Assembly: GCF_003752365.1 (NCBI RefSeq)
Contig: NZ_RJUO01000001.1
Span: 1-64,000 of the forward strand
DNA length: 64,000 nucleotides
DNA from: Frondihabitans sp. PhB188
GTDB taxonomy: Bacteria; Actinomycetota; Actinomycetes; Actinomycetales; Microbacteriaceae
Reading direction: 5' to 3'
A program made the translations under genes and the position numbers. Below, piece by piece: positions 45,891 to 59,879 of this stretch (the first letter of the stretch is position 1; the number at the start of each line of letters is the position of its first letter). A model generated the notes under the pieces. It was not told where the DNA came from. It saw only the letters and a list, made by a program, of their open reading frames with translations, and did not search any database.

Positions 45891-46427
45891 ATGACGCAAA
45901 ACAGGACGCAGACAGTCGCCCACGTGCGCGTCAGCAGCGCTAACCAGAACCTCGCGCGTCAGCTTGAAGCGGTCGGACCCGTCGATCGAGTCTTCGAGGA
46001 GAAGGTCTCAGGAGGTTCCTGCGACGACCGGACGGCGTTGGCCGAGTGCATCCGGTACGTCCGCGACGGCGACAATGTTCGCGTCGCATCCATGAACCGT
46101 CTCGCGCGGTCCCTGCGTGACCTACGCGACATCGTCGACGAGATCTCGACTAAGGGTGCCTCGGTGACGTTCGTGAAAGAGCAGCAGACCTACGGCGTCG
46201 ATACCGGCGATGCGATCGGTGAGCTCATGCTCAACCTCCTCGGCGCCTTCGCCGAGTTTGAACGCTCCCTGATCCGTGAGCGTCAAAGCGAGGGAATCCG
46301 GATCGCAAAAGAGGCCGGGAAATACCTCGGCCGCGCACCTAAGCTGACTATCGAACAGATCAGCGAAGCTCAGGGCTTGATCGGCGCAGGCGTTCCCAAG
46401 AGCGTCGTCGCCCAAAGCTCGGGGTGA
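45891..46427 (+). CDS. Serine recombinase (resolvase), C-terminal HTH broken
   Basis: 178 residues. The catalytic domain is complete: AHVRVSSANQNLARQLEAVG with the active Ser, VASMNRLARSLRDL and the E-helix FAEFERSLIRERQSEG. The DNA-binding Hin-type helix-turn-helix starts (LTIEQISEAQGLIGAGVPKS) but breaks at about 46417. A missing base throws the frame, and the other frame reads LGVNRATLY and then hits TGA where Arg is expected. So one frameshift and one nonsense change have removed the recognition helix. Probably inactive in site-specific recombination. Confidence 0.85.
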   Translation: MTQNRTQTVAHVRVSSANQNLARQLEAVGPVDRVFEEKVSGGSCDDRTALAECIRYVRDGDNVRVASMNRLARSLRDLRDIVDEISTKGASVTFVKEQQTYGVDTGDAIGELMLNLLGAFAEFERSLIRERQSEGIRIAKEAGKYLGRAPKLTIEQISEAQGLIGAGVPKSVVAQSSG

Positions 46428-46598: not shown

Positions 46599-46904
46599 AT
46601 GAGCAATTTGGGGAAGTACCAAGACATCACGACCTGGGCTAAAGATGTCGGCGGCGTTGATAAATTGATCGAAGCAATTGGCTCGGAGGCCGTGCTCAAG
46701 GCCGCTCCCAAGCTCGTTGGTGTCGGGATTGTCGCAGGTGGAGCTCTTTTTCTTGGCGGCCGAACGGCGGTTACCCAGGGCAAGGTGCTGCGCACGAAAT
46801 TCGAAGCAGTTCGGGGCGCGGCCGCGCAAGCGAAAACCGACTTGCGCGCCCGGCTCGAGAAGAGCGACGAGCCGGATGGCCTGCAATCGGACGACCAGGG
46901 GTAA
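46599..46904 (+). CDS. Small membrane protein of the island
   Basis: 101 residues from ATG 46599. An amphipathic N-terminal half is followed by one hydrophobic helix (LVGVGIVAGGALFLGGRTAV) and a charged helical tail. Unknown family. It lies 86 bases before the methyltransferase gene on the same strand and may belong to the same defence module as a membrane component, but the gap leaves that open. Confidence 0.6.
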   Translation: MSNLGKYQDITTWAKDVGGVDKLIEAIGSEAVLKAAPKLVGVGIVAGGALFLGGRTAVTQGKVLRTKFEAVRGAAAQAKTDLRARLEKSDEPDGLQSDDQG

Positions 46905-46990: not shown

Positions 46991-48181
46991 ATGCTTTTGA
47001 GCGCTAGGACGATCCATCCCTTTCCGGCGCGTATGGCTCCGGAGATCGCGTTGAATGCGATTCCGGAGAGGCGTTCCGCAGAGCAGCTACTAGTGATCGA
47101 TCCCATGTGCGGCTCCGGCACCGTGCTGGCCGCCGCTGTTCAGCGGGGTCAGAGGGCTCTCGGAATCGACATTGATCCTTTGGCCGTCATGATGTCGACG
47201 GTGGTGACGTCGCCCCAAAATTTCGCCTCGCTAAGCGAACTCGCGCAGGGCGCCATTTCGGCGAGTAAGCAGGCCAAAGCTCATTCGCCATGGATCGACG
47301 ATGAGACCGAACGGTTTGCGCAATATTGGTTCGGGAAAAAGCAAAAATACCAACTCACCGTCCTGGCGGCCGCCATCAAGAACATCGAGGACGTTCACCA
47401 GAGACTCGCGCTGCAGGTGGCTCTCAGCCGGATCATTGTCACTAAGTCTCCTCAGGCTTCACTTGCCGCAGACACGGCGCATAGCAGGCCTCACAAGGTG
47501 CAGCAGGAATCCGACTACGACGTCTTCCTTGGTTTCGAAAAATCGGCACAGGCACTCGGGCGGTTGCTTGAGAAGCGCGAAAATCTAGGCTCCGCCAACG
47601 TACTTCTGGGAGACTCTCGCACACTGGGCGGTATTTCAGACGGCTGCGCTGATCTTGCTGTTACATCGCCGCCGTATCTCAATGCACTGGATTACCTGAG
47701 AGGCCACAAATTAGCTCTTATTTGGTTCGGTCACTCCATTCCATCTCTGCGCGAGATCCGGAGAGACAGCATCGGGGCAGAGCGGGCTCTGGATGGTCCG
47801 CCAGACGAACTGGGCCAAGACTTGGCCGACATGATCACTGATTCAGTGAGTGAGCCGGACACCCTTCCCAAAGGAATGATTCTTCGCTTTGCGCATGACA
47901 TGGTCGGGTTCGCCAAGCAGCTGCGACGAGTTCTAAAAGCGGACGGATCCGTCGTTGTCGTTGTAGGGAACTCCACTCTCAAGGGAAACTACATTCGCAA
48001 CGATTTGATCACTCAAACGGCACTCGAAGCCATGGGGTTCGCTCTCGCGTCCCGCCATGAACGCGAAATTCCCCCGCAAAAGCGCTACATGGCCATGAGC
48101 TCCCGAGGCGCCGACATGGCACTAGCTAAACGAATGCGCTCAGAGGTCGTTCTCACGATGAAAGGCACCGCCCGTGGCTGA
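46991..48181 (+). CDS. DNA methyltransferase, SPPY type (N4-cytosine or N6-adenine)
   Basis: 396 residues. Motif X/N-terminal region HPFPARMAPEIALNAI, SAM motif I DPMCGSGT (residues 37-44) followed by GIDIDPLAV, and catalytic motif IV TSPPY at residues 225-229 with LNALDYLRGHKLAL. The I-to-IV order and SPPY favour an exocyclic amino methylase of the beta/TRM11-like class. No separate target-recognition domain is obvious. First gene of a tight operon: its stop overlaps the ATPase gene by 8 bases. TTG 46997 fits the AGGGG site slightly better than ATG 46991. Confidence 0.82.
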   Translation: MLLSARTIHPFPARMAPEIALNAIPERRSAEQLLVIDPMCGSGTVLAAAVQRGQRALGIDIDPLAVMMSTVVTSPQNFASLSELAQGAISASKQAKAHSPWIDDETERFAQYWFGKKQKYQLTVLAAAIKNIEDVHQRLALQVALSRIIVTKSPQASLAADTAHSRPHKVQQESDYDVFLGFEKSAQALGRLLEKRENLGSANVLLGDSRTLGGISDGCADLAVTSPPYLNALDYLRGHKLALIWFGHSIPSLREIRRDSIGAERALDGPPDELGQDLADMITDSVSEPDTLPKGMILRFAHDMVGFAKQLRRVLKADGSVVVVVGNSTLKGNYIRNDLITQTALEAMGFALASRHEREIPPQKRYMAMSSRGADMALAKRMRSEVVLTMKGTARG

Positions 48182-50384
48182 GGTCTTAGCGTTCCGTCCT
48201 CACGCTCGCCTGCTCACGATGCTCGGCGAGCAGTTGATAAAAAACGACCGAATAGCTCTGGTAGAACTCGTGAAGAACGCCTACGACGCGGATGCCACCC
48301 GCGTCGACGTCGATTTTCAAGGCTTTGACCCCGACGGTCACGCTACGCAAACGTCTTCCATAGTCGTAACCGACAACGGCACCGGCATGCCGGAGGACGT
48401 TGTTAGGGGAGCGTGGATGAACCCTGCCACTCCATCGAAGCTCAACCGCAAGAGAACGCAAGGTGCCACCTCAAGTGGCCGAGTCATGCAGGGTGAGAAG
48501 GGCATTGGTCGCTTTGCTTCCTTCAAGCTAGGTAGCGTCGTGATGCTCACCACACGCACCTCAGGCGAAGCCGAAGAGCTCACAGTGCTGGTCGACCTGA
48601 GTGAATTGGACGTGGTTCCCGACGCGGGATTTGAGTACGAGCCGCTCTACCTAGATGAGATGGGAGCAAATCTCTCTAAAGGCGAGGCACGGGTCTTTAG
48701 CGGCTCGAGCCAGACCGGCTCTTCCGACCATGGCACGCGGATTGAGATCTCCGCGCTCCGGTCCGAGTGGAGCCGGGAAGAGTTTGAAGAAGCCTTCGCA
48801 GATCTCGAGCGCATGCAGCCGATCATGTGGGCTACTGAACCGGACTCAGTAGCAAAGGCCCCGAAGACAGCCGCGAGCTTCGAAGTCCACTTTCTCGTCG
48901 ATGGAGTCGACCAGGAGCTGGCAGGCGTCCGTGAACTCGAGCTTTCAGCGCTCTTCGACCGTGCGGTACTCAGAGTGACGAATGGTCGATTTCATGACCA
49001 AGAACGTCAATTCTCCTTCGAGGTAAACAAGCGACCAATCCGGCTCTCTATCGACTCTGGCGAAGTGCGCGGCATTCGACCGTTCCGAGACCGCTTTAGA
49101 CCAGAGCAGGCCGAGCATCCCGAAATCGCCTGTGGCCCGTTCAATTTTGAGTTCTACATCTTCGACTTCTCACCTACCGCTCCTGCACAGCATCTACTTC
49201 GAAGGGATGACAAAGACCTTCTACGAGAGCACCGCGTTTATCTCTACCGCGACGGAATCCGGGTTTACCCATATGGAGACCCGGAGGACGACTGGCTCCA
49301 GGTTGATCGAATTCGCGGCACCCAGTCTGCCCGATCCATGTTTAGCAATGATCAGGCACTGGGCTACGTCAGCATTACGCAAGAACAAAATTCCCTCCTT
49401 CAGGACAAGACAAACCGGGAAGGTCTTATAGACGCAGGGCGCTCGAGCGGAGACTTTGTTGCCCTGATTCAGACTGTTCTGAGCTGGCTTCGCGCTAAGC
49501 CGTATGACCAATACGCCGCCGCAAACCGCAGGAACAAGGAAAAATCTCAACGAGACCAAGGTGTCTTCGATAAGGAAATTTCCGACCTGATCAATGCGGC
49601 CGGACTACCAAAGGCGCTTCAGCAAAACCTGCAGCGAATCAATACAGCTGTCACGTCCGAGAGGGAACTAGCCAAGGTTCAGTTGGCTCGAACTCAGGAC
49701 CTAGCGGGAGTTGGGCTGTCCGTCGAGTCGGCCTCGCATGACCTGATAGCGGCAGGCACAGAATCTCTTCGTCTCGCCCGGAAGATTCATCGAGAACTTC
49801 GAGAACTTGGCTTGGCCATGGAGCCCGTCTACGCCGACACGGGCAGCCTCGTCCAAAGGCTCGAGTTCGTTGACTCCCGCTTCCGAGACGTCCAAGGGCT
49901 ATTCGTGTCTACGCGGCAGAAGCGTTCCTCACTTGACGTCTTTATGTATCTCCGACGAGTCAAATCGATGTACGCCTCACTTCACCGGGATAAAAACATC
50001 CAGTTCGAAATAGACGACACCGCTCCGCTTCGAGTTATGACGACTGAGGCAGCTCTTTTGCAGTGCTTCATCAACCTGATTGACAACGCCACTTATTGGC
50101 TCATGTCCAGTAGCCACGAGCCACGACTAATTCGTGCCTTCCCAACCCAAGCCTCGCAAATCGTCATTTCAGACAACGGTCCGGGGATCAGTCCCACCGA
50201 TGCCGAGTTCATTTTCGAGCCCTTCTATTCTGGCAAAGGTGATGAAGGGAAAGGCCTTGGGTTGTTCATCGCCCGAGAAGTGGGGCTTAGGAACGATTTT
50301 TCTGTTGACATCGCGGCTTCAGATGACTCGCGCATGCTGCCAGGCGCCAGCTTCGAGGTCACTTTTGGAACACCGGGGGAGTAA
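48174..50384 (+). CDS. Hsp90/MutL-type ATPase fused to histidine-kinase core
   Basis: 736 residues with two GHKL nucleotide-binding domains. The first is N-terminal and Hsp90/MutL/MORC-like: E31 and N35 in ELVKNAYDAD, D67 in TDNGTGM, and glycine-rich GEKGIGRF at about residue 110. After a 250-residue middle and a coiled-coil comes an H-box-like ASHDL with H522. The second is a histidine-kinase ATPase with N638 (IDNA), D667 (SDNGPG) and GKGLGLFIAREVG. So it looks like a cytosolic sensor kinase whose input domain is an ATP-driven clamp. No membrane segment. The receiver gene starts 2 bases after it. Confidence 0.85.
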   Translation: MAEVLAFRPHARLLTMLGEQLIKNDRIALVELVKNAYDADATRVDVDFQGFDPDGHATQTSSIVVTDNGTGMPEDVVRGAWMNPATPSKLNRKRTQGATSSGRVMQGEKGIGRFASFKLGSVVMLTTRTSGEAEELTVLVDLSELDVVPDAGFEYEPLYLDEMGANLSKGEARVFSGSSQTGSSDHGTRIEISALRSEWSREEFEEAFADLERMQPIMWATEPDSVAKAPKTAASFEVHFLVDGVDQELAGVRELELSALFDRAVLRVTNGRFHDQERQFSFEVNKRPIRLSIDSGEVRGIRPFRDRFRPEQAEHPEIACGPFNFEFYIFDFSPTAPAQHLLRRDDKDLLREHRVYLYRDGIRVYPYGDPEDDWLQVDRIRGTQSARSMFSNDQALGYVSITQEQNSLLQDKTNREGLIDAGRSSGDFVALIQTVLSWLRAKPYDQYAAANRRNKEKSQRDQGVFDKEISDLINAAGLPKALQQNLQRINTAVTSERELAKVQLARTQDLAGVGLSVESASHDLIAAGTESLRLARKIHRELRELGLAMEPVYADTGSLVQRLEFVDSRFRDVQGLFVSTRQKRSSLDVFMYLRRVKSMYASLHRDKNIQFEIDDTAPLRVMTTEAALLQCFINLIDNATYWLMSSSHEPRLIRAFPTQASQIVISDNGPGISPTDAEFIFEPFYSGKGDEGKGLGLFIAREVGLRNDFSVDIAASDDSRMLPGASFEVTFGTPGE

Positions 50385-50386
50385 GA

Positions 50387-51622
50387 ATGTCGATTCTGCA
50401 TGGGCCCGTGGCCTTCATCGATGACGAAATAGATGACCGCGAAAAACCCGCTTACATCATGCGGAAGGCGATGGAGGCGGACGGGAGGCCCGTTGCGGCC
50501 TACTCGACGCTCCCAGATGTTGCTGCCATTCGGCACTGGCAGTCGCTTTCGTTCTTGGTCCTCGACTGGGACCTGAGCCCAGGCTCCTACGGTGGTTCGG
50601 GAGCCTCAACACTAAGCGGCTACGCGCGAGATGAATTGTTTCGCTTCCTGCAAGAGCTATTGGCAACGGTGTTCTGCCCGATCTTCATCATCAGTGCAGA
50701 AGATGTCGCAGACATTCAACGCCAGCTTGAGGAAGACCACCGGTTCGGAGGGAAGGAGCTCGACACCCGAATCAAGGTCTTCGGAAAATCGGCCGTTGTT
50801 GACGACCTGATCAATGACCTGTCAACCTGGGTCGAGAACAATTTGGCTCTCTCAGTGCTTCGCGTTTGGGAGCAGGAGTATGAAAAGGCCAAGAATCGAC
50901 TATTTATTGATCTAAACAAGTTGGATTCCAACTGGCCTATCTACGTCTGGCAAAACGCCATAGACGACAAGGTCGAACCATCCTTCGAACTAGCCACCAC
51001 CCTCACCGCCAACTTGCTTCACCGCATCGATCTTGTGAAATTTGACACGGAAACAATGCTCGCGGCGAGTGAAAACGCTCAATTGGCGAGCAGCGCAATG
51101 CGCAAGGTTCTCAATGGTCGGACAGTCATTCCTGCGAACAGGCTGCATTTAAACGTCGTGATGCCGGGCGACATGTTTTTCGACAGCGAGAACCCAGATC
51201 AGATTTGGCTGAATCTGACGCCTGCGTGTCACACCGTGCCTGGCCGATTGAAGGACGGCGAAGACATGCGTCTTTTCGTCGTTCCAGGAACTAAGCAGCC
51301 CCACCCTCCGAGCAAGACGAAGTTCACGGACCTGAATAGGGACAATCCCAACTCATTCGTTGTCCATGTGCTCCACGATGACAGCCCCTATATCTTCAAT
51401 TTAAAAGCCTCTGAGTACGTTCTTTGGAGTGAAGCAGGTCCGCGGCGAGTTGGGCGACTCCTGGCTCCCTACATCACGCGTGCCCAACAGGCCAATGCAA
51501 TGTTTATGCAGATCGAAGGCGTTCCCCGCACTAGCTATGAGCTGTACAAGCCCGGCGAGGACTCGACTTCTGACCCGTCGGTGACAAGCGCGACTAGTGC
51601 TGCCACAACAGACAGCGCCTAG
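50387..51622 (+). CDS. Receiver-domain protein with unknown C-terminal domain
   Basis: 411 residues. Residues 1-150 read as a response-regulator receiver: acidic pocket D12-D13 (AFIDDE), phospho-acceptor D60 (LVLDWDLSPG), S103 (IISAED) and K134 (VFGKS), all in the right order. The loop after D60 is longer than usual. The C-terminal 260 residues have no motif I know; they look mixed alpha/beta, with conserved-looking MPGDMFFDSENPDQIWLNLT, and contain no helix-turn-helix. The likely role is as phosphorylation partner and effector or adaptor for the upstream kinase. Confidence 0.75.
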   Translation: MSILHGPVAFIDDEIDDREKPAYIMRKAMEADGRPVAAYSTLPDVAAIRHWQSLSFLVLDWDLSPGSYGGSGASTLSGYARDELFRFLQELLATVFCPIFIISAEDVADIQRQLEEDHRFGGKELDTRIKVFGKSAVVDDLINDLSTWVENNLALSVLRVWEQEYEKAKNRLFIDLNKLDSNWPIYVWQNAIDDKVEPSFELATTLTANLLHRIDLVKFDTETMLAASENAQLASSAMRKVLNGRTVIPANRLHLNVVMPGDMFFDSENPDQIWLNLTPACHTVPGRLKDGEDMRLFVVPGTKQPHPPSKTKFTDLNRDNPNSFVVHVLHDDSPYIFNLKASEYVLWSEAGPRRVGRLLAPYITRAQQANAMFMQIEGVPRTSYELYKPGEDSTSDPSVTSATSAATTDSA

Positions 51623-51720: not shown

Positions 51721-51810
51721 GCGCTCTTTGGTTTGGGACACCTGGGTGCGGGGCAAGGGAACCTTAGTCGGCCTGGGTTTTGTTCCGTTCTTTGGTCAAG
51801 GATGGGCATC

Positions 51811-52143
51811 ATGACCCAGTACACGACAGAGATGCGTGACCGGGCGCTGCGGATGGTGAATGAGGCCCGCCCGGAGCACCCGAATTTGATGGCCGCGATC
51901 AGGCATGTCGCCGGGATGCTCGGGATGAGTCCGGAGACACTGCGGATGTGGCAGCGCCGCTACGAGGTCGATGCCGGCGAGCGGCCCAGTGTGACGTCAA
52001 ATGTTTTCGAGGAGAACCGTCGCCTGAAACGCGAGGTCACCGAGCTGAAGCGTGCGAACGAGATCCGAAAGTCCGCATCAGTCTTTTTCGCCAAGGAACA
52101 GGGCCGTCCCACGACGAGACGATTCGCTTCATCGATCAGATGA
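51811..52143 (+). CDS. IS3 transposase OrfA
   Basis: 110 residues from ATG 51811. A helix-turn-helix (RALRMVNEARPEHPNLMAAI then GMSPETLRMWQRRYEVDAG) is followed by a leucine-zipper-like VFEENRRLKREVTELKRANE. It binds the element ends. A run of T's near 52083 may be the slippery site for making the OrfAB fusion. OrfA itself seems intact up to the frameshift zone. Confidence 0.85.
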   Translation: MTQYTTEMRDRALRMVNEARPEHPNLMAAIRHVAGMLGMSPETLRMWQRRYEVDAGERPSVTSNVFEENRRLKREVTELKRANEIRKSASVFFAKEQGRPTTRRFASSIR

Positions 52144-53047
52144 GGGATCGTTTCGCAGGGCGTGCGCCATCTGCCGGGTGCTGCGCCCGGCAGTTCGTGG
52201 GTTCCTCACCGCCCGCGGATACCGGGCCGCGAGAGCACGTCCGCCATCCGCGCGGCAGCTCTGGGACGACTTTCTCGTTCCTGTGGTGGCCAGGTTGCAC
52301 CGTGAGAACTACGGGGTTTACGGGCTGCAGAAAATGCACGCACTGCTCCGCAGGCAGGGGTGGAACGTCGGCCGCGACCAGACCGAACGGCTCATGCGCG
52401 CCGCCGGTGTTCGCGGGGTCAGGCGCTCGAAGCGTCTGTTCACGACGAAGTCGGACCCGCGTCAGACGTTGCCGCATGAACTCGTGAAGCGGCGCTTCAC
52501 CGCCGAAGGGCCTCGCAAGCTCTGGGTCGCAGACGTGACCTGCGTCGCCACCTGGAGAGGGTTCGCCTACGTGGCCTTCGTTACCGACGTCTACTCGAGA
52601 CGGATCGGCGGCTGGAACGTGGCCGCCGCATTGAAAGCGGACATCCTCCCGCTGCAAGCCCTCGACATGGCCGCGTGGGCGGCCGACGGAAACCTTGCCG
52701 GGCTGATCCACCACTCGGACCACAGGTCGTGCTCCTCGGCGCTGGTCTACACCGAGCGGATCGTCGCACTCGATGCCACCCCGTCGACCCGGACGGTCGG
52801 CGACAGCTTCGACAACGCTCTAGCCGAGGCCGTGAACGGGCTCTACAAGACCGAGTTGGTCCGGCAGCGCAGCCCCTGGCGCACCGACGAACAAGTCGAG
52901 TTAGCGACGCTCGAATACGTTTAGTGGTGGAACAACCAGCGCCTCCACTCCGAGCCGGACTACGCCACCCCGATCGAGGTCGAGCAGGCGTACTACGCTG
53001 ACCTCGAATTAGCCCAGCAGGCATCCGCCGGACCAGGCACAACCTAG
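52052..53047 (+). pseudogene. IS3 transposase OrfB, inactivated
   Basis: The integrase-core reading frame is interrupted. Its expected beginning (ETIRFIDQMRDRF) is in a different frame from the rest (AICRVLRPAVRGFLTARGY), a frameshift at about 52160. An in-frame TAG at 52922-52924 replaces the first Trp of the usual WWWNNQRLH run, after which the frame continues to 53047. The DDE residues can still be placed (WVADVT, HHSD, NALAEAVNGLYKTE), but the segment after the second Asp (HRSCSS) is corrupted. Confidence 0.85.
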
Positions 53048-53210: not shown

Positions 53211-54773
53211 ATGACTAAAGAAGCCCAGCGCGGCGAGTTGCACAAGACCATCTGGCGTGTCGCCAACGACCTGCGGGGCAGCGTCGACGGGTGGGACTTC
53301 AAGACCTACGTCCTCGGGATTTTGTTCTACCGGTTCATCTCCGAAAACCTCTCCTCCTACTTGAACGAGCAGGAACAGCGCGCTGGCACGGCCGACTTCG
53401 ACTATGGCCAGCTCGCAGACGCGGATGCGGAGTTCGGGCGGGCGGTGACCGTCGCCGAAAAGGGGTTCTACATCCTCCCCAGTGAACTGTTCCAAAACGT
53501 TCTCGCGAAAGCGACTGGAAATGAGAACCTCAACGAGACCCTTGAGCGGGTGTTCCGAAATATTGAAGGGTCTGCGGTCGGGACGGACAGCGAGGACGAC
53601 CTGAAGGGGTTGTTCGACGATCTCGACGTCAACAGCAACAAGCTTGGTCCCACCGTTGCTCGGCGGAACGAGAAACTCGTGAAGCTCCTCGCCGCCGTCG
53701 GAGACCTCCAGCTAGGGAACTTCGCGGACCACACGATCGACGCGTTCGGGGACGCGTATGAGTACCTGATGGGCATGTACGCCTCCACCGCCGGGAAATC
53801 GGGCGGCGAGTATTACACCCCCCAAGAAGTCTCCGAGCTTCTCGCACGGATCACCGTCGTCGGGAAAACCGAAGTGAATAAGGTCTATGACCCCGCCTGC
53901 GGCTCCGGGTCCCTGCTCCTGCAATTTTCGAAAGTCCTAGGGAGGGACAATGTCCGACAGGGGTTCTACGGGCAGGAGATCAACCTGACGACGTTCAACC
54001 TGTGCCGGATCAACATGTTCCTCCACGACGTCAACTACGAGAAATTCAACATTGCCCACGGCGACACCCTCCAAGACCCCGCGCAGTGGGACGACGAACC
54101 CTTCGAAGCAATCGTCTCCAACCCGCCCTACTCTGCGAAATGGGAGGGAGATGCCAACCCGCTGCTGATCAACGACGCCCGCTTCGCGCCTGCGGGCGTC
54201 CTGGCACCAAAATCGAAGGCGGACCTCGCCTTCACCATGCACATACTCTCCTGGCTTGCGGTCAATGGGACCGCCGCCATCGTCGAGTTCCCCGGCGTTC
54301 TCTACCGGGGTGGCGCGGAACAAAAGATACGTAAGTACCTGATCGACAACAATTACGTCGACACCGTCATTCAGCTGCCCCCGGACCTGTTCTTCGGCAC
54401 CACCATCGGCACGTGCATTATTGTGCTCAAGAAATCCAAGACTGATAACAAGGTGCTGTTCATCAACGCTTCCACCGAGTTCGTTCGGGCCGGGAGCAAG
54501 AACAAGCTCGACGACACCAATCGGGCCAAGATTCTTGACGCCTACTCCACACGCCAGGACCGAGAGCACTTCGCCGTGCTTGTCGACAACGCCAGGATCG
54601 GGGAAAACGGCTACAACATTGCGGTCTCGTCTTACTTGGAAGCCGAAGACACCAGCATCGCCGTAGACATCGCTGCCCTCAATACCGAAATACAACAGAT
54701 CGTCGGCCGTCAACAAGAATTGCGGCAGAGAATCGACGAGATTGTGGCTACCCTTGGAAATGTAAACCCGTGA
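53211..54773 (+). CDS. hsdM: Type I restriction-modification methyltransferase subunit
   Basis: 520 residues. The N-terminal HsdM helical domain has WRVANDLRGSVDGWDFKTYV. SAM motif I is DPACGSGSLL from D227, and the N6-adenine motif IV is NPPYSAKW from N304. Works as M2S in modification and R2M2S in restriction. GGAGATCGAGAGAGC before ATG 53211 provides a ribosome site. The stop overlaps hsdS by 4 bases. First gene of a complete hsdMSR operon directly after the dead IS. Confidence 0.95.
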   Translation: MTKEAQRGELHKTIWRVANDLRGSVDGWDFKTYVLGILFYRFISENLSSYLNEQEQRAGTADFDYGQLADADAEFGRAVTVAEKGFYILPSELFQNVLAKATGNENLNETLERVFRNIEGSAVGTDSEDDLKGLFDDLDVNSNKLGPTVARRNEKLVKLLAAVGDLQLGNFADHTIDAFGDAYEYLMGMYASTAGKSGGEYYTPQEVSELLARITVVGKTEVNKVYDPACGSGSLLLQFSKVLGRDNVRQGFYGQEINLTTFNLCRINMFLHDVNYEKFNIAHGDTLQDPAQWDDEPFEAIVSNPPYSAKWEGDANPLLINDARFAPAGVLAPKSKADLAFTMHILSWLAVNGTAAIVEFPGVLYRGGAEQKIRKYLIDNNYVDTVIQLPPDLFFGTTIGTCIIVLKKSKTDNKVLFINASTEFVRAGSKNKLDDTNRAKILDAYSTRQDREHFAVLVDNARIGENGYNIAVSSYLEAEDTSIAVDIAALNTEIQQIVGRQQELRQRIDEIVATLGNVNP

Positions 54774-55972
54774 ACCGCGCCGATCGCTTGCCTAATGAGT
54801 TCTCATCGGACGGAGTGGAGTACCGCACTCTTGGCGAGCTTGGGACTCTTTATGGAGGCCTCTCGGGTAAATCTAAGGCCGACTTCTCCGATGGAAACGC
54901 TCACTTTCTGCCCTACGTCAATGTTTTTCGAAACGAGGTCGCTGACCTGAATGACGTTTTTCCCGTGACCGTAGGCGGAGATGAGCGACAGAACCGCCTT
55001 GCGATGGGCGATGTCCTTTTCACGTCGTCCTCCGAGAATGGGGATGACGTCGGCATGTCGTCTGTGGTCATGGCCGAACCAGAGGCGCCGCTATATCTCA
55101 ACAGCTTCTGCTTTGGCTTTCGGGCGACCGAGCCGGATACCTACCTGCCAGAGTTCGCGCGACACCTGTTCCGATCACCAGCGGTGCGCCGTCAGATTGT
55201 ACGAACTGCTAGCGGCGTCACGCGGTTCAACGTATCTAAATCTCGCTTTTTAGAGGTCCGCGTTCCTCTGCCTCCGATTAAGGTTCAGCGCGAGATCGCA
55301 AAGGTTTTGGACGAGTTCACTGAACTGGAATTAGAGCTGGAACATCATTTGCAGGCGGAGCTAACCGCCCGTGCGCGTCAGCTTCGGTTCTACCGGGAGA
55401 CGCTTTTAGATTTCGAGGAGCAGGAGGACGTGACCTGGCTTCCCTTACTCGATGTCGCAGCAATCGGCACAGGATCTCGAAACACCAACGAGGCCATAGC
55501 TCATGGGAAATACCCGCTTTTTGTGCGTTCCCAGGAACCTCTGGCAAGTGACACCTATGAGTTCGACGAGGCGGCAATTATTACGGCTGGCGATGGGGTT
55601 GGAGTCGGGAAGATATTTCATTTTATTGAAGGAAAATACTCACTGCATCAGCGCGCGTACCGAATAAGCCCGAGGTCTCCGGCGATTCGACCGAAATTTC
55701 TCTATCACTTCGTCCGGGAGGATTTCGGTCGGTATCTGACCATGACCGCTGTCCATGCTTCTGTCACCTCCCTCCGGAGACCCATGTTCGAAAAGTACTC
55801 GATCCCGATTCCGTCGTTGGTCGATCAGGATCGGTTGGTCCGCGTTCTCGACGAATTGGATTCACTCGATATTGATCTGACAATCCGTCTTTCAGCCGAG
55901 CTAGCGGCCCGTCGGATACAACATGGGTTCTACCGAGACCGGCTTCTCACATTTGCCGAGGTGGTCGCGTGA
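54770..55972 (+). CDS. hsdS: Type I restriction-modification specificity subunit
   Basis: 400 residues, two target-recognition domains. TRD1 (about 10-165) ends at the conserved helix IKVQREIAKVLDEFTELELE, TRD2 (about 215-350) at DQDRLVRVLDELDSLDIDLT. Both are followed by FYR segments (QLRFYRETLL, QHGFYRDRLL), the usual internal repeat of HsdS. GC is lower than in hsdM and hsdR, as is common for exchanged specificity genes. Overlaps both neighbours by 4 bases. Confidence 0.93.
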   Translation: MNRADRLPNEFSSDGVEYRTLGELGTLYGGLSGKSKADFSDGNAHFLPYVNVFRNEVADLNDVFPVTVGGDERQNRLAMGDVLFTSSSENGDDVGMSSVVMAEPEAPLYLNSFCFGFRATEPDTYLPEFARHLFRSPAVRRQIVRTASGVTRFNVSKSRFLEVRVPLPPIKVQREIAKVLDEFTELELELEHHLQAELTARARQLRFYRETLLDFEEQEDVTWLPLLDVAAIGTGSRNTNEAIAHGKYPLFVRSQEPLASDTYEFDEAAIITAGDGVGVGKIFHFIEGKYSLHQRAYRISPRSPAIRPKFLYHFVREDFGRYLTMTAVHASVTSLRRPMFEKYSIPIPSLVDQDRLVRVLDELDSLDIDLTIRLSAELAARRIQHGFYRDRLLTFAEVVA

Positions 55973-58900
55973 CGAATGAGGAAACTCGCCATTTTGAACC
56001 GATCGCTTTGAGCGCAGAAAGCACCGTTGTTGCTGAGTTCACACCGGACCCCGCGGCGGACGTGGCCTACCAGTCGGAGGCAGATCTTGAAACGGCATTT
56101 ATCTCCCTGCTACAGGAGCAGGCGTACGAGTACCTCGCCATCACGACGGAGAATCAGCTCGTCTCGAACCTTCGGAGCCAGCTCGAACTCTTGAACTCGC
56201 TCACGTTTTCGGATTCGGAGTGGGACCGGTTCTTCTCGGAGCGGATTGCGGGGGAGCGAGACGGGATTGTGGAGAAGACGGCGCGGGTCCAGGAGGATCA
56301 CGTGCAACTGCTCCGCCGGGATGATGGCACGTCGAAGAACGTGATGCTGCTCGATAAGCAGCACGTCCACAACAACCGTCTCCAGGTCATCAACCAGTAC
56401 GAAGTCGGACAAGGAGCCGGCGGCGCGAAGTACGCGAACCGGTACGACGTCACCGTCCTGGTCAACGGTCTCCCGATGGTCCACATTGAGCTGAAGCGGC
56501 GCGGCGTGAACATCCGGGAAGCGTTCAACCAGATCGACCGGTACCAGCGGGACAGCTTCTGGGCAGGTTCTGGTCTATTCGAGTACGTGCAGCTGTTCGT
56601 GATCTCCAACGGGACGCTGACGAAGTACTACAGCAACACCACCCGTCGGCAGCACCTCGACGAGGCCACCGGGACTCGGCGGGTGCGGAAGACGTCGAAC
56701 AGTTTCGAGTTCTCGTCCTGGTGGGCGGACGCCAACAACCGGCCCATCCAGGACCTGACGAGCTTTGGGAAGACTTTCTTCGCCAAGCACGCCCTTTTGA
56801 ACATTCTGACGCGCTACTGCGTCTTCACGGCCGACCGGATGCTGCTGGTGATGCGTCCGTATCAGATCGTCGCCACCGAGCGGATCTTGCAGCGAGTTCA
56901 GGCGTCGACGAACCAGAGGCAGCTCGGCACCATCGCCGCAGGCGGCTACGTCTGGCACACCACCGGTTCCGGAAAGACCCTCACGAGCTTCAAAGCCGCG
57001 CAGCTGGCCTCCCGGCAGCCCGGCGTCGACAAGGTGCTGTTCGTCGTCGACCGCAAAGACCTCGACTACCAGACGATGCGCGAGTACGACCGGTTCGAGA
57101 AGGGCGCCGCGAACTCCAACACCTCCACCCGTGTCCTGAAGCAGCAGCTCGAGAACCCGGCGTCTCGGATCATTATCACCACGATCCAGAAGCTGGCCAC
57201 GTTCATCCTCGGCAACAAGGGCCACGAGATCTACGACGGGCACGTGGTTATCGTCTTCGATGAGTGCCACCGGTCCCAGTTCGGGGACATGCACACCGCG
57301 ATTGTGAAGGCGTTCAAGAAGTATCACCTGTTCGGCTTCACCGGGACACCGATCTTCTCGGCCAACGCCGGGACCGGCGGGAGCCCGGTGCTGCGGACGA
57401 CGGAGCAGGCGTTTGGGGAGAAGCTTCACACGTACACGATCGTTGACGCGATCACGGACAAGAACGTACTCCCGTTCCGCATCGACTACGTCAACACGAT
57501 CAAGCTGCCACCCGCGGTCACCGACAAGCAGGTGTCCGCCATCGACACCGAAAGCGCCCTCCTCTCGGAGACACGCGTCCGCCAGGTCGTCGGCTACACG
57601 CTCGAGCACTTCGACCAGAAGACCAAGCGGGCCGAGTACTACGCGGTCGCCGGAAAACGACTCCGCGGATTCAATGCCCTCTTTGCCACCGCGTCGATCC
57701 CCGCCGCCCGCACGTACTACCGCGAGTTCGCCAAGCAGCAGAGGGACCTTCCGGAGGCGCAGCGGCTCAAGGTGGGACTGATCTACAGCTACGCCGCCAA
57801 CGAGGCTGTCGCTGACGGGATCCTCGAGGAAGAGGAGTTCGAAACTCAAGCCCTCTCGTCCGACGCGCGCACCTTTCTCGAAGGTGCGATCCAGGATTAC
57901 AACGGCCTGTTCAGGACGAGTTTCGACACGTCGTCGGAGAAGTTCCAGAACTACTACAAGGACCTCTCCCTCCGGGTGAAGAACCGCGAGCTTGATCTGG
58001 TCATCGTCGTGAATATGTTCCTCACCGGGTTCGACGCCACCACCCTCAACACCCTCTGGGTCGACAAGAACCTCCGCGCCCACGGCCTTGTGCAAGCTTT
58101 CTCCCGCACAAACCGGATCCTGAACTCCGTGAAGACCTATGGGAACATCGTCAGCTTCCGGGACTTGGAAGACCAGACCACCGACGCCATCGCCTTGTTC
58201 GGCAACAAGAACGCCGGCGGCATCGTGCTCCTCAAGCCTTACGGCGACTACTACGCCGAGTACGCCGAGAAGGCGTCCGATTTGCTGAGTCAGTTCCCGC
58301 TGGGTACCCCGATCATTGGGGAGACCGCTCAAAAGCAATTTGTCGCCTTGCTCGGCGGGATCCTACGGCTGAGGAACATCCTCACCTCATTCGACGACTT
58401 CGAGGGCAACGAGATACTGACCGCCCGGCAGATGCAGGACTACCAGTCCGTCTACCTCGACCTCTACGCGGATTTCCGCCGCGAACAGCACGCGGAAAAG
58501 GAATCGATCGCAGAAGACGTCCTCTTCGAAATCGAGCTGATCAAACAGGTCGAGATCAACGTCGACTACATCCTCATGCTCGTCCAGCAATACCGAGAGG
58601 CCAAGGGTGACGGTGACGACACCGAGATTCGGGCCACGATCAGCAGAGCCGTCGACTCGAGCCCATCTCTTCGGAACAAGACAGACCTCATCGAGTCGTT
58701 CGTCGACTCCGTCACTGTGGATGGCGATGTCGGGAAGGACTGGCAGGCGTTCATCGCCGCGAAGCGTGCCGAGGAGCTTGGGCGGATCGTTGAGGAGGAA
58801 AACCTCAACCCAGAAGCGACCCAGGACTTCATCGACACGGCATTCCGCGACGGCGCAATCCAGTCTGGAGGAACAGCGATCACCCGAATTCTGCCCCCGG

Positions 58901-58998
58901 TGTCGCGCTTTACCGCTGGCGGCAACCACGCAATCAAGAAGCAGACGGTCCTCGACAAGCTCGGCGTCTTCTTCGACCGATTCTTCAGACTCGGCTAA
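55969..58998 (+). CDS. hsdR: Type I restriction endonuclease subunit
   Basis: 1009 residues. The N-terminal PD-(D/E)xK nuclease is visible as RYDVTVLVNGLPMVHIELKR. The SF2 motor follows with Walker A HTTGSGKTLTS (G333-T337), DECH in VIVFDECHRSQFG and TGTPIF, plus motif VI QAFSRTNRI. The C-terminal helical domain binds HsdM. All key residues are present, so the system may be active. Start GTG 55969. Confidence 0.95.
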   Translation: MTNEETRHFEPIALSAESTVVAEFTPDPAADVAYQSEADLETAFISLLQEQAYEYLAITTENQLVSNLRSQLELLNSLTFSDSEWDRFFSERIAGERDGIVEKTARVQEDHVQLLRRDDGTSKNVMLLDKQHVHNNRLQVINQYEVGQGAGGAKYANRYDVTVLVNGLPMVHIELKRRGVNIREAFNQIDRYQRDSFWAGSGLFEYVQLFVISNGTLTKYYSNTTRRQHLDEATGTRRVRKTSNSFEFSSWWADANNRPIQDLTSFGKTFFAKHALLNILTRYCVFTADRMLLVMRPYQIVATERILQRVQASTNQRQLGTIAAGGYVWHTTGSGKTLTSFKAAQLASRQPGVDKVLFVVDRKDLDYQTMREYDRFEKGAANSNTSTRVLKQQLENPASRIIITTIQKLATFILGNKGHEIYDGHVVIVFDECHRSQFGDMHTAIVKAFKKYHLFGFTGTPIFSANAGTGGSPVLRTTEQAFGEKLHTYTIVDAITDKNVLPFRIDYVNTIKLPPAVTDKQVSAIDTESALLSETRVRQVVGYTLEHFDQKTKRAEYYAVAGKRLRGFNALFATASIPAARTYYREFAKQQRDLPEAQRLKVGLIYSYAANEAVADGILEEEEFETQALSSDARTFLEGAIQDYNGLFRTSFDTSSEKFQNYYKDLSLRVKNRELDLVIVVNMFLTGFDATTLNTLWVDKNLRAHGLVQAFSRTNRILNSVKTYGNIVSFRDLEDQTTDAIALFGNKNAGGIVLLKPYGDYYAEYAEKASDLLSQFPLGTPIIGETAQKQFVALLGGILRLRNILTSFDDFEGNEILTARQMQDYQSVYLDLYADFRREQHAEKESIAEDVLFEIELIKQVEINVDYILMLVQQYREAKGDGDDTEIRATISRAVDSSPSLRNKTDLIESFVDSVTVDGDVGKDWQAFIAAKRAEELGRIVEEENLNPEATQDFIDTAFRDGAIQSGGTAITRILPPVSRFTAGGNHAIKKQTVLDKLGVFFDRFFRLG

Positions 58999-59045: not shown

Positions 59046-59879
59046 ATGACCATGCCTTACTTCGATCTAGACCGATTCGACCAGGACGAGGACTCAATGG
59101 TTCGACGGCTTTCAGGAGCCACGCGAGCAGCAGTTCCCGAAGGAACCGACGGATGGACGTGGGCCTTGCCGCTGGTGTTTCAGTCATTGGCCTCACCCTC
59201 CACTGCCCGGTTTCCACAGCGCCCAGGCGGCGGACCACATGAGGTGGAACCGGGCGTCTTGGGCTACTGGGCGGCGCTTCAGGGTTTCCTCACCTATGTT
59301 CTCGGCTGGCGGCGCCATGACCGGGGACTCCGGTGGTGGATCGATAAGGGGCGTCCGACAGAAGACCCTCATCTGGCGTTTCTTGCTGACGTATGGGGGG
59401 CCGACGGCGCGGTTGAGCCGTACCTGTTCTGGGTGCAGTCCCTGCCCCAATTTCGCAACCCCGGCGCTCTTTCCCATGACCATGCATGGCACGCTGAGGA
59501 TCTAGATCTGGGGTGGTCTCTCTGGCAGACGGAACAGGAGCGGGCCAGAGCCGGGGCCCATCCTCGCCCGTTCGGGCTGCACCTGGAAAACGGCGATCAC
59601 ATTGCCGATCTTGGTCCCGTAGCCGTGGGCCCCCGCGACATGCCACCACGGATGACCTACAACTTGGCTTCCCACGAAGCCGTTTTAGAGACCCAAACTC
59701 TCGCCCAAGCGTTCGAACGCCTTTCCACCATGGGCGGTGCGCTGCCGGCCGCCGCTGGTGCTGCGTGGCGCATCCATCTGTATGCCAAGACGGTGGGGTT
59801 CCTGGGCACGTATCGACAATCCTGGCGAACAGGACTCTGGTTCAGCGGTCCTCACCGCCACCACTCGCCCGGCAACTAA
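59046..59879 (+). CDS. Unknown protein downstream of hsdR
   Basis: 277 residues from ATG 59046. Soluble, Trp-rich (about 13), with YFDLDRFDQDEDSMVRRLSG at the start and a central AALQGFLTYVLGWRRHDRGL. No motif recognised. It lies 48 bases after hsdR on the same strand, and a bidirectional hairpin follows, so it may be co-transcribed with the restriction genes. Being in a defence island suggests, but does not show, a defence or regulatory role. Confidence 0.7.
   Translation: MTMPYFDLDRFDQDEDSMVRRLSGATRAAVPEGTDGWTWALPLVFQSLASPSTARFPQRPGGGPHEVEPGVLGYWAALQGFLTYVLGWRRHDRGLRWWIDKGRPTEDPHLAFLADVWGADGAVEPYLFWVQSLPQFRNPGALSHDHAWHAEDLDLGWSLWQTEQERARAGAHPRPFGLHLENGDHIADLGPVAVGPRDMPPRMTYNLASHEAVLETQTLAQAFERLSTMGGALPAAAGAAWRIHLYAKTVGFLGTYRQSWRTGLWFSGPHRHHSPGN

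Follow-up and report, generated by a model that had tools for sequence, protein, structure and literature searches.

Do three adjacent genes in the actinomycete Frondihabitans sp. PhB188 act as one system, and what would such a system do? The genes lie in the window, by which we mean the whole 64,000-nucleotide stretch analyzed (assembly GCF_003752365.1, contig NZ_RJUO01000001.1, positions 1 to 64,000). All three are open reading frames (ORFs) on the + strand, as are the domains described below: a DNA methyltransferase of 396 residues (46991–48181), a MORC/MutL-like GHKL ATPase fused to a histidine-kinase core, of 736 residues (48174–50384), and a receiver protein, or response regulator, of 411 residues (50387–51622). 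The methylase and kinase ORFs overlap by 8 bases (48174–48181), and 2 bases (50385–50386) separate the kinase from the receiver, as a sequence-only reading of this DNA had stated. That reading took the trio for an undescribed defence system. We find that the trio is one conserved unit whose genes stay together across distant bacteria, an archaeon and viral contigs. Whether it is a restriction-modification-like (R-M-like) or abortive defence under phosphorelay control is, in our judgement, an even call.

Methylase, kinase and receiver are conserved as a unit

Searching with the kinase alignment, we fetched the best 80 of 553 confirmed genome loci and 65 viral-contig loci. The set analyzed comprises 147 loci with a kinase ORF (L003–L150 minus L030, which has none), and the 38 whose kinase matches with an E-value better than 1e-120 are termed close loci. 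Some viral kinases are identical (L098 and L099, L108 and L122, L141 and L147), so these loci are not all independent. A methylase was scored as adjacent if it belongs to the same family and its gene is directly upstream, overlapping the kinase gene or no more than 400 bases from it; a side was evaluable only if it had at least 1 kb of flank. The methylase is directly upstream of the kinase in 33 of 34 evaluable close loci and the receiver directly downstream in 35 of 36; when L003–L005, which were found through the receiver, are set aside, the counts are 30 of 31 and 32 of 33. The intergenic spacing is mostly −20 to +13 bases. The hosts, many of them metagenome bins, include Actinomycetota, Bacillota, Bacteroidota, Pseudomonadota, Acidobacteriota, Verrucomicrobiota, Ignavibacteriota, others, and the archaeon Methanoperedens. 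This co-occurrence count bears out the earlier claim that the trio is a unit.

The genes also coevolve. Over 33 loci, pairwise distances correlate at 0.83 between kinase and receiver, 0.50 between kinase and methylase, and 0.47 between methylase and receiver, and none of 1000 permutations reached any of the observed values. Could three genes that do not work together simply have come to lie side by side in a defence island? The trio indeed lies in a low-GC island with mobile genes, and the G+C content of the trio is 0.54–0.57 versus 0.72 in the left flank. Such an accident is highly improbable, however, given the same gene order at the frequencies above in many phyla and an archaeon, and the kinase-receiver correlation.

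A fourth core gene was also considered. The 265-residue gene after the receiver in the Allorhizobium plasmid locus (L003) was tried, and the idea was dropped because no two of ten downstream genes are alike at E≤0.01. In the genome of the window the receiver is single-copy, and the kinase has only a partial, 90-residue match elsewhere.

The methylase, the kinase and their published relatives

The methylase matches Pfam N6_N4_Mtase (2.5e-10) and the Type II methyltransferase models of PADLOC. Motif I, DPMCGSGT, is at residue 37 (47099–47122) and motif IV, TSPPY, at residue 225 (47663–47677). These motifs point to methylase activity, and the product is probably N4-methylcytosine (m4C), judging from the SPPY motif. 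The role assigned earlier, methylation as a self-mark, fits. With regard to a Type II R-M system, the methylase is present and no nuclease was recognized in the window trio. Four close loci have a second methylase, divergently transcribed on the − strand (L003 5073–6263, L008 6051–7244, L031 6058–7308, L091 6361–7545). The one in L003 is closer to the window methylase (39% identity) than is L003's own adjacent methylase (26%), a kinship hinting at an asymmetric target or at methylase exchange.

The kinase has an ATPase half and a histidine-kinase half. The N-terminal GHKL ATPase domain (48252–48593) is recognized by Pfam as HATPase_c_3 at residues 27–140 (1.2e-21). A second, S5-like domain of the ATPase module, at approximately residues 265–400 (48966–49373, the boundary being a judgement), is seen in the AlphaFold2 model and by Foldseek. 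It is followed by a DHp-like helical hairpin at residues 480–581 (49611–49916), with the presumed phospho-acceptor H522 at 49737–49739, and by the C-terminal catalytic domain (49926–50366), identified by Pfam, model and alignment, with HATPase_c at residues 625–713 (3.3e-17), N638, D667 and the G-boxes. The window kinase thus has the architecture HATPase_c_3, DHp with a conserved histidine, HATPase_c, and its motifs are present: SHD with H522, N638, and DNGPG with D667. Thirteen residues are invariant in 33/33 close kinases: E31, N35, D67, G69, G71, G107, G110, G112, H522, D523, N634, N638 and D667. Among the 147 aligned kinases of the wider family, the window included, the first eight of these (E31 to G112) are identical in all, as are H522 and N638, and D667 is kept in 140.

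Foldseek searches with the kinase model (mean predicted local distance difference test score, pLDDT, 78.7; predicted template-modelling score 0.59) return SMCHD1, MORC2, Hsp90/TRAP1, topoisomerase VI-B and MutL (template-modelling, TM, score 0.61 of target), and also histidine kinases such as ZraS and HK853, in agreement with the proposal of an Hsp90/MutL-type ATPase half and a histidine-kinase half. A profile search of PDB sequences likewise finds Hsp90/HtpG at the N-terminal half and histidine kinases at the C-terminal half. The NCBIfam BbrUII/HgiDII restriction-enzyme model matches residues 14–200 with 1.1e-15 and 57 bits, far under its 550-bit cut-off. As described in the accessible part of Iyer et al. 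(2008; PMC2292703), MORC/paraMORC proteins likewise have an N-terminal GHKL and S5 ATPase, and their genes lie next to those for DNA methylases, Vsr and endonucleases. The kinase has their GHKL motif residues (147/147) and the S5-like second domain, the latter from the model with mean pLDDT 78.7. The C-terminal parts differ, being nuclease, TIR or other in the MORC/paraMORC proteins. In that part of the paper the word receiver is absent, and histidine kinases appear only in naming the GHKL superfamily.

Is the trio new? The kinase/receiver pair and its link to methylases are not, and the label 'undescribed' does not hold for them. According to the accessible part of Bellieny-Rabelo et al. (2021; PMC8011034), a pair named HEF_HK (PF19191) and Response_reg_2 (PF19192) lies beside DNA methylases, mainly of the C5 class; there the pair is assigned no function and its receivers no other known domain. 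From what that part describes, the published pair and the window share the HATPase_c_3, DHp and HATPase_c kinase, an adjacent receiver with all phosphorylation residues, an upstream methylase and R-M-rich surroundings. They differ in that the window methylase is N4/N6 (SPPY) and not C5, Vsr is absent, and the receiver has 411 residues rather than 555–617. At E≤0.1 in the Pfam scan, the window kinase misses PF19191 and the receiver misses PF19192. Among the 26 genomes behind the fetched loci, PF19191 has four matches, three over the cut-off, and PF19192 one, under the cut-off, in the genome of L034. PF19192 proteins over the cut-off were found in 3 of 274 genomes; they have 555–617 residues and lie beside a homologous kinase of 991–1003 residues. 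The kinases of these three true PF19192 loci are homologous to the window kinase (1.8e-52 to 1.7e-60), and of the whole window receiver only about 40 C-terminal columns align with the true PF19192 proteins (1e-5; 1.7e-6). Because this homology extends beyond both Pfam models, the superfamily is wider than PF19191/PF19192.

A FastTree phylogeny of the 147 kinases resolves the window type as a single clade with 39 members (support 100); the method is fast, some long branches meet and many rows are of odd composition. An adjacent N4/N6 methylase is present in 36 of the clade and none was found in three, two of which are at a contig edge. L134 and L146, which also have N4/N6 methylases, form a second small group away from this clade, and the distribution of C5 and N4/N6 methylases requires two changes on the tree. 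By sequence comparison, then, the window proteins are a separate clade, with another methylase class, of a pair described in 2021. No N4/N6-methylase trio is named in the literature we searched, which excluded bioRxiv and most subscription papers.

The repair protein Vsr was considered as a candidate effector. The wider loci were counted where at least 3 kb is present on both sides (75 loci; 34 of 109 with shorter flanks were left out). Of these, 54 have a C5 methylase, 31 have Vsr (all with C5), 49 have a receiver profile match and 2 have a window-family N4/N6 methylase. Among the 38 close loci, Vsr is present in 0 and a C5 methylase in 1. Vsr repairs mispairs from deaminated 5-methylcytosine, as stated in the accessible part of PMC8011034. 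Since it occurs only with C5 methylases (31/31) and acts on their deaminated product, we read Vsr as an accessory of C5 chemistry, and it was rejected as the effector. In L034 (5035–12927), a C5-type relative, genes for a HerA-like ATPase and an HhH-GPD glycosylase surround the kinase and receiver genes, and the task of Vsr may there fall to the glycosylase. A profile built for HhH-GPD proteins drew in C5 proteins as well, and none of the counts given here rests on it.

These counts also bear on whether the unit is a DNA-repair or epigenetic signalling device, in which a MutL-like clamp reads the methylation state, rather than a defence. The MutL-like fold, the presence of Vsr with many C5 versions and the HhH-GPD gene in one of them would fit. 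The distribution of Vsr, however, tracks 5-methylcytosine chemistry and not the kinase pair, and the sister types described below, which have an HNH nuclease in the effector position, point to attack. We regard the repair reading as quite improbable.

The receiver output domain and a probable effector slot

The receiver protein has no match in Pfam or NCBIfam at E≤0.1, nor among the PHROGs at 0.001. In its AlphaFold2 model (mean pLDDT 86.1), a receiver domain is followed by a helical linker and then by a beta-rich domain whose last element is a helix. The receiver domain, residues 1–140 (50387–50806), to which Foldseek matches receivers, contains D12, D13, D60 (50564–50566), S103 and K134. D12, D60 and K134 are identical in 35/35 aligned receivers; residue 13 varies among D (28), N (6) and E (1), and residue 103 between S (19) and T (16). 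Like H522, N638 and D667 in the close kinases, these receiver residues are conserved beyond chance, and the motifs read earlier are present in all three proteins. The helical linker, residues 141–244 (50807–51118), keeps W183 in 35/35 and D194 in 33/35. The window-type receiver profile finds no PDB sequence at E≤1, and the kinship to standard receivers is established by profile through a related receiver family, A6.

The C-terminus, residues ~245–390 (51119–51556), is a conserved domain seen by model, alignment, Foldseek and profile comparison: G261, D262, C281 and P361 are identical in 35/35 receivers and N276 in 33/35. The earlier description of a receiver with no DNA-binding output stands insofar as no DNA-binding domain is recognized, in sequence or in the predicted structure; it missed this output domain, for which a MazF/CcdB-like fold is predicted.

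How widespread is the output domain? The window receiver family, A4, aligns over nearly its full length with two C5-type families, A5 (7.2e-13) and A6 (1.6e-19), and with the L034-type A7 (6.7e-24). The window output domain alone matches A6 (4.6e-17), A7 (1.2e-11) and A5 (3.9e-7). With the true PF19192 receivers it matches at 1.7e-6 over 39 columns only, a GD..P.CD module; A6 aligns with the output part of these receivers over 141 columns (8e-10), and the A7-PF19192 and A5-PF19192 pairs are weak (9.1e-5 and 7.7e-4). Unrelated control regions gave 0.06 or worse. By these profile comparisons, the C-terminal output domain is common to five of the eight receiver families compared, the published one included, and its sharing among them is new here.

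In the Foldseek search of the PDB with the receiver model, mostly receivers come first, and the top 50 include MazF (5ckf; TM score 0.70 of target) and CcdB (3tcj, 1vub; 0.64 of target). In a viral structure library the fourth match is a phage PemK/MazF toxin (TM score 0.67, probability 1.00, E 3.5e-3), with further PemK-like proteins. The output domain is predicted to be MazF/CcdB-like in fold only. PF02452 (MazF/PemK) has no match in the receiver by Pfam scan. The domain differs from MazF/PemK and CcdB in its invariant residues and in the lack of detected PemK sequence homology, and it is fused to a receiver, whereas these toxins are paired with an antitoxin.

In viral relatives, other genes occupy the corresponding position. 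In eight viral loci (L111, L113, L116, L118, L120, L121, L130, L149), a receiver of ~210 residues comes after the kinase, and after it a small protein of one family. The L121 member is HNH by Pfam (3.8e-7), and CxYC, DHF and CxxCN are kept in 8/8. The short receivers, nine with that of L136, have D59, T92 and K111 in 9/9, and their profile matches the A6 receiver at 4.8e-12. A methylase-family gene is upstream in L116, L118, L120, L121 and L130 and downstream in L113 and L149; none was seen in L111. These genes belong to families whose members in L110 and L142 Pfam calls N6_Mtase and Eco57I. In L110, L112 and L115, the kinase is followed by a receiver-like gene and then by a metallo-beta-lactamase-family gene (Pfam, two members scanned, L110 and L112). 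The viral contigs with HNH or metallo-beta-lactamase genes may partly be prophages. From these swapped genes, the fused C-terminal domain of the window receiver likely sits in the effector slot.

The operons of L110, L112 and L115 also have a methylase-family gene, Pfam-checked in L110, beside the MORC-like kinase. In L142, L141, L125 and their kin, three viral receiver families without the window-type output domain are each followed by a small gene family. Pfam has no match in one receiver of each of these families, nor in the small genes scanned after them; these genes are possibly further effectors.

Defence surroundings and a proposed pathway

We compared, at E≤1e-30 in PADLOC, the 77 non-trio proteins of eight close loci and the window with a single sample of 77 proteins drawn at random from 158 in 16 stretches of the nine tested genomes. 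The neighbour proteins matched 67 models and the controls 1, in keeping with a defence-rich setting. Among the 25 of 67 listed are Type I R-M (window), GajA and GajB (Gabija), HmaB, a Type IV restriction enzyme and a DRT helicase; some matches (DndA/SspA, RtcR) may be housekeeping. The ten genes directly after the receiver include a Type III methylase, HsdM, an AbiEii-like AAA protein, a PIN domain and a Schlafen-type helicase, and also metabolic and unknown genes. The PADLOC candidates PDC-M43B (E 0.01) and PDC-M46A (0.0025) were rejected as weak partial matches only.

Such surroundings raise the possibility, proposed in the accessible part of PMC8011034, that the pair is a two-component system regulating the expression or activity of neighbouring R-M genes. 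The two-component anatomy would suit this role, and in the window Type I R-M genes lie within 1.6 kb. Against it, the receiver has no recognized DNA-binding domain, and the next gene downstream differs, without kinship, among all 10 loci compared, so that there is no constant R-M target. We consider regulation improbable.

The trio might instead be an addiction module by which mobile DNA selfishly maintains itself: the methylase would protect, the kinase would trigger killing once the unit is lost, and phage defence would be a side effect. Its patchy spread would fit. The receiver was found in its own genome and one other of 60 searched, and in its own and one other of 396 in the phylum; the unit is carried on a plasmid (Allorhizobium, L003), a phage-collection scaffold and viral contigs, and the predicted output fold is toxin-like. 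When viral contigs were scanned with the receiver alone, no relative turned up. The defence-rich neighbourhood argues against an addiction module, and such modules usually consist of a toxin and an antitoxin without a phosphorelay. We regard this reading as unlikely.

That two-component defence exists is established by Detocs, which, in the accessible part of its description (PMC11249213), is likewise a three-gene two-component system with an effector acting on phage infection. Its best-described effector is a PNP degrading ATP. The window trio is set apart, by description, by its methylase, its MORC-like ATPase half and its MazF/CcdB-like predicted output. PADLOC-DB 2.0.0, which may not contain Detocs, gives no Detocs match in the window.

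For a defence under phosphorelay control, we infer a pathway of DNA sensing, phosphotransfer, output toxicity and phage protection. The methylase would mark host DNA as self. The N-terminal MORC/MutL-type ATPase clamp of the kinase would sense incoming or unmarked DNA, or another phage cue. Closure of the clamp would turn on the C-terminal kinase, so that H522 is phosphorylated and the phosphate handed to D60 of the receiver. Phosphorylation would free the output domain, with its predicted MazF/CcdB-like fold, which could then act on nucleic acid or on a gyrase-like target; the phage would be stopped, whether or not the cell dies. In sister types, a separate HNH nuclease or metallo-beta-lactamase-fold gene would fill the effector slot.

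Several results weigh against this reading. Two close loci are exceptions to the linkage: L011 has no recognized methylase by Pfam of the upstream genes, and L090 has no receiver. Many of the 67 PADLOC models are versions of one gene, 25 of 67 are listed, and the control is one sample; with several models per gene and no protein count, 67 overstates the number of systems, and the contrast remains. Three viral-contig receiver families (339–410 residues) match the receiver domain (2.7e-10, 1.5e-8 and 1.1e-6) and no output profile (0.05 or worse), and seem, by these comparisons, to end differently. The MazF/CcdB matches in the PDB have probability 1.00 but weak E-values (0.013–0.023), and evident mismatches such as G-protein-coupled receptors occur at similar E-values with probability 0.85–0.96 (human CB1 receptor, 0.93). 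We place the MazF/PemK/CcdB match of the model on the C-terminal domain from fold class and size, no aligned range being printed. Compared with 25 PemK sequences by hhalign, the output domain gives E 0.52, and no sequence homology is detected. The catalytic residues of MazF are Arg and Thr. This site is not evident in the output domain, where the conserved set is D262, N276, C281 and mostly D282, the last being D in 30/35 receivers and H in the window. Toxicity of the output is therefore a guess from the fold.

More broadly, the sister types would form one class of phosphorelay restriction, in which a methylase sets the self-mark, a MORC-type DNA clamp is the sensor half of a kinase, and phosphate fires an exchangeable effector. 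This class would also cover the HEF_HK/Response_reg_2 pairs of 2021; we hold it tentatively, as somewhat more doubtful than not. In DefensePredictor (2026; PMC13092281), the key of Fig. 6F, in the accessible part of the paper, has HATPase and REC among the domains of eight predicted, unvalidated systems, which may or may not include this family.

The immediate surroundings of the trio contain several further genes. A serine recombinase/DNA invertase-like gene (45891–46427; Resolvase, 2.5e-32) is upstream, with a possible link to the mobility of the island, and a 101-residue ORF directly 5' of the methylase (46599–46904) has no Pfam or PHROG match. The trio is separated from the Type I R-M genes by an IS3-type insertion element (51733–53045). 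The second ORF of this element (52052–52924, rve domain) stops early, judged by eye, and the transposase thus looks broken. Beyond it, in the same low-GC stretch, hsdM, hsdS and hsdR are all open (53211–58998), followed by a 277-residue protein (59046–59879) with no Pfam, PADLOC or PHROG match. In an empty-site comparison with six congeners, the flanks of the trio are not syntenic.

If the proposed pathway is correct, a methylation self-mark, a MORC/MutL ATPase sensor and a His-Asp phosphorelay trigger would be joined in one immune pathway, a combination we did not find described. Its effector slot would hold a toxin-like fold in some types and nuclease-type genes in others. The two-component family of the 2021 pairs, published but unexplained, would thereby gain a function, and the pathway would offer a bacterial setting for testing what MORC-type clamps recognize.

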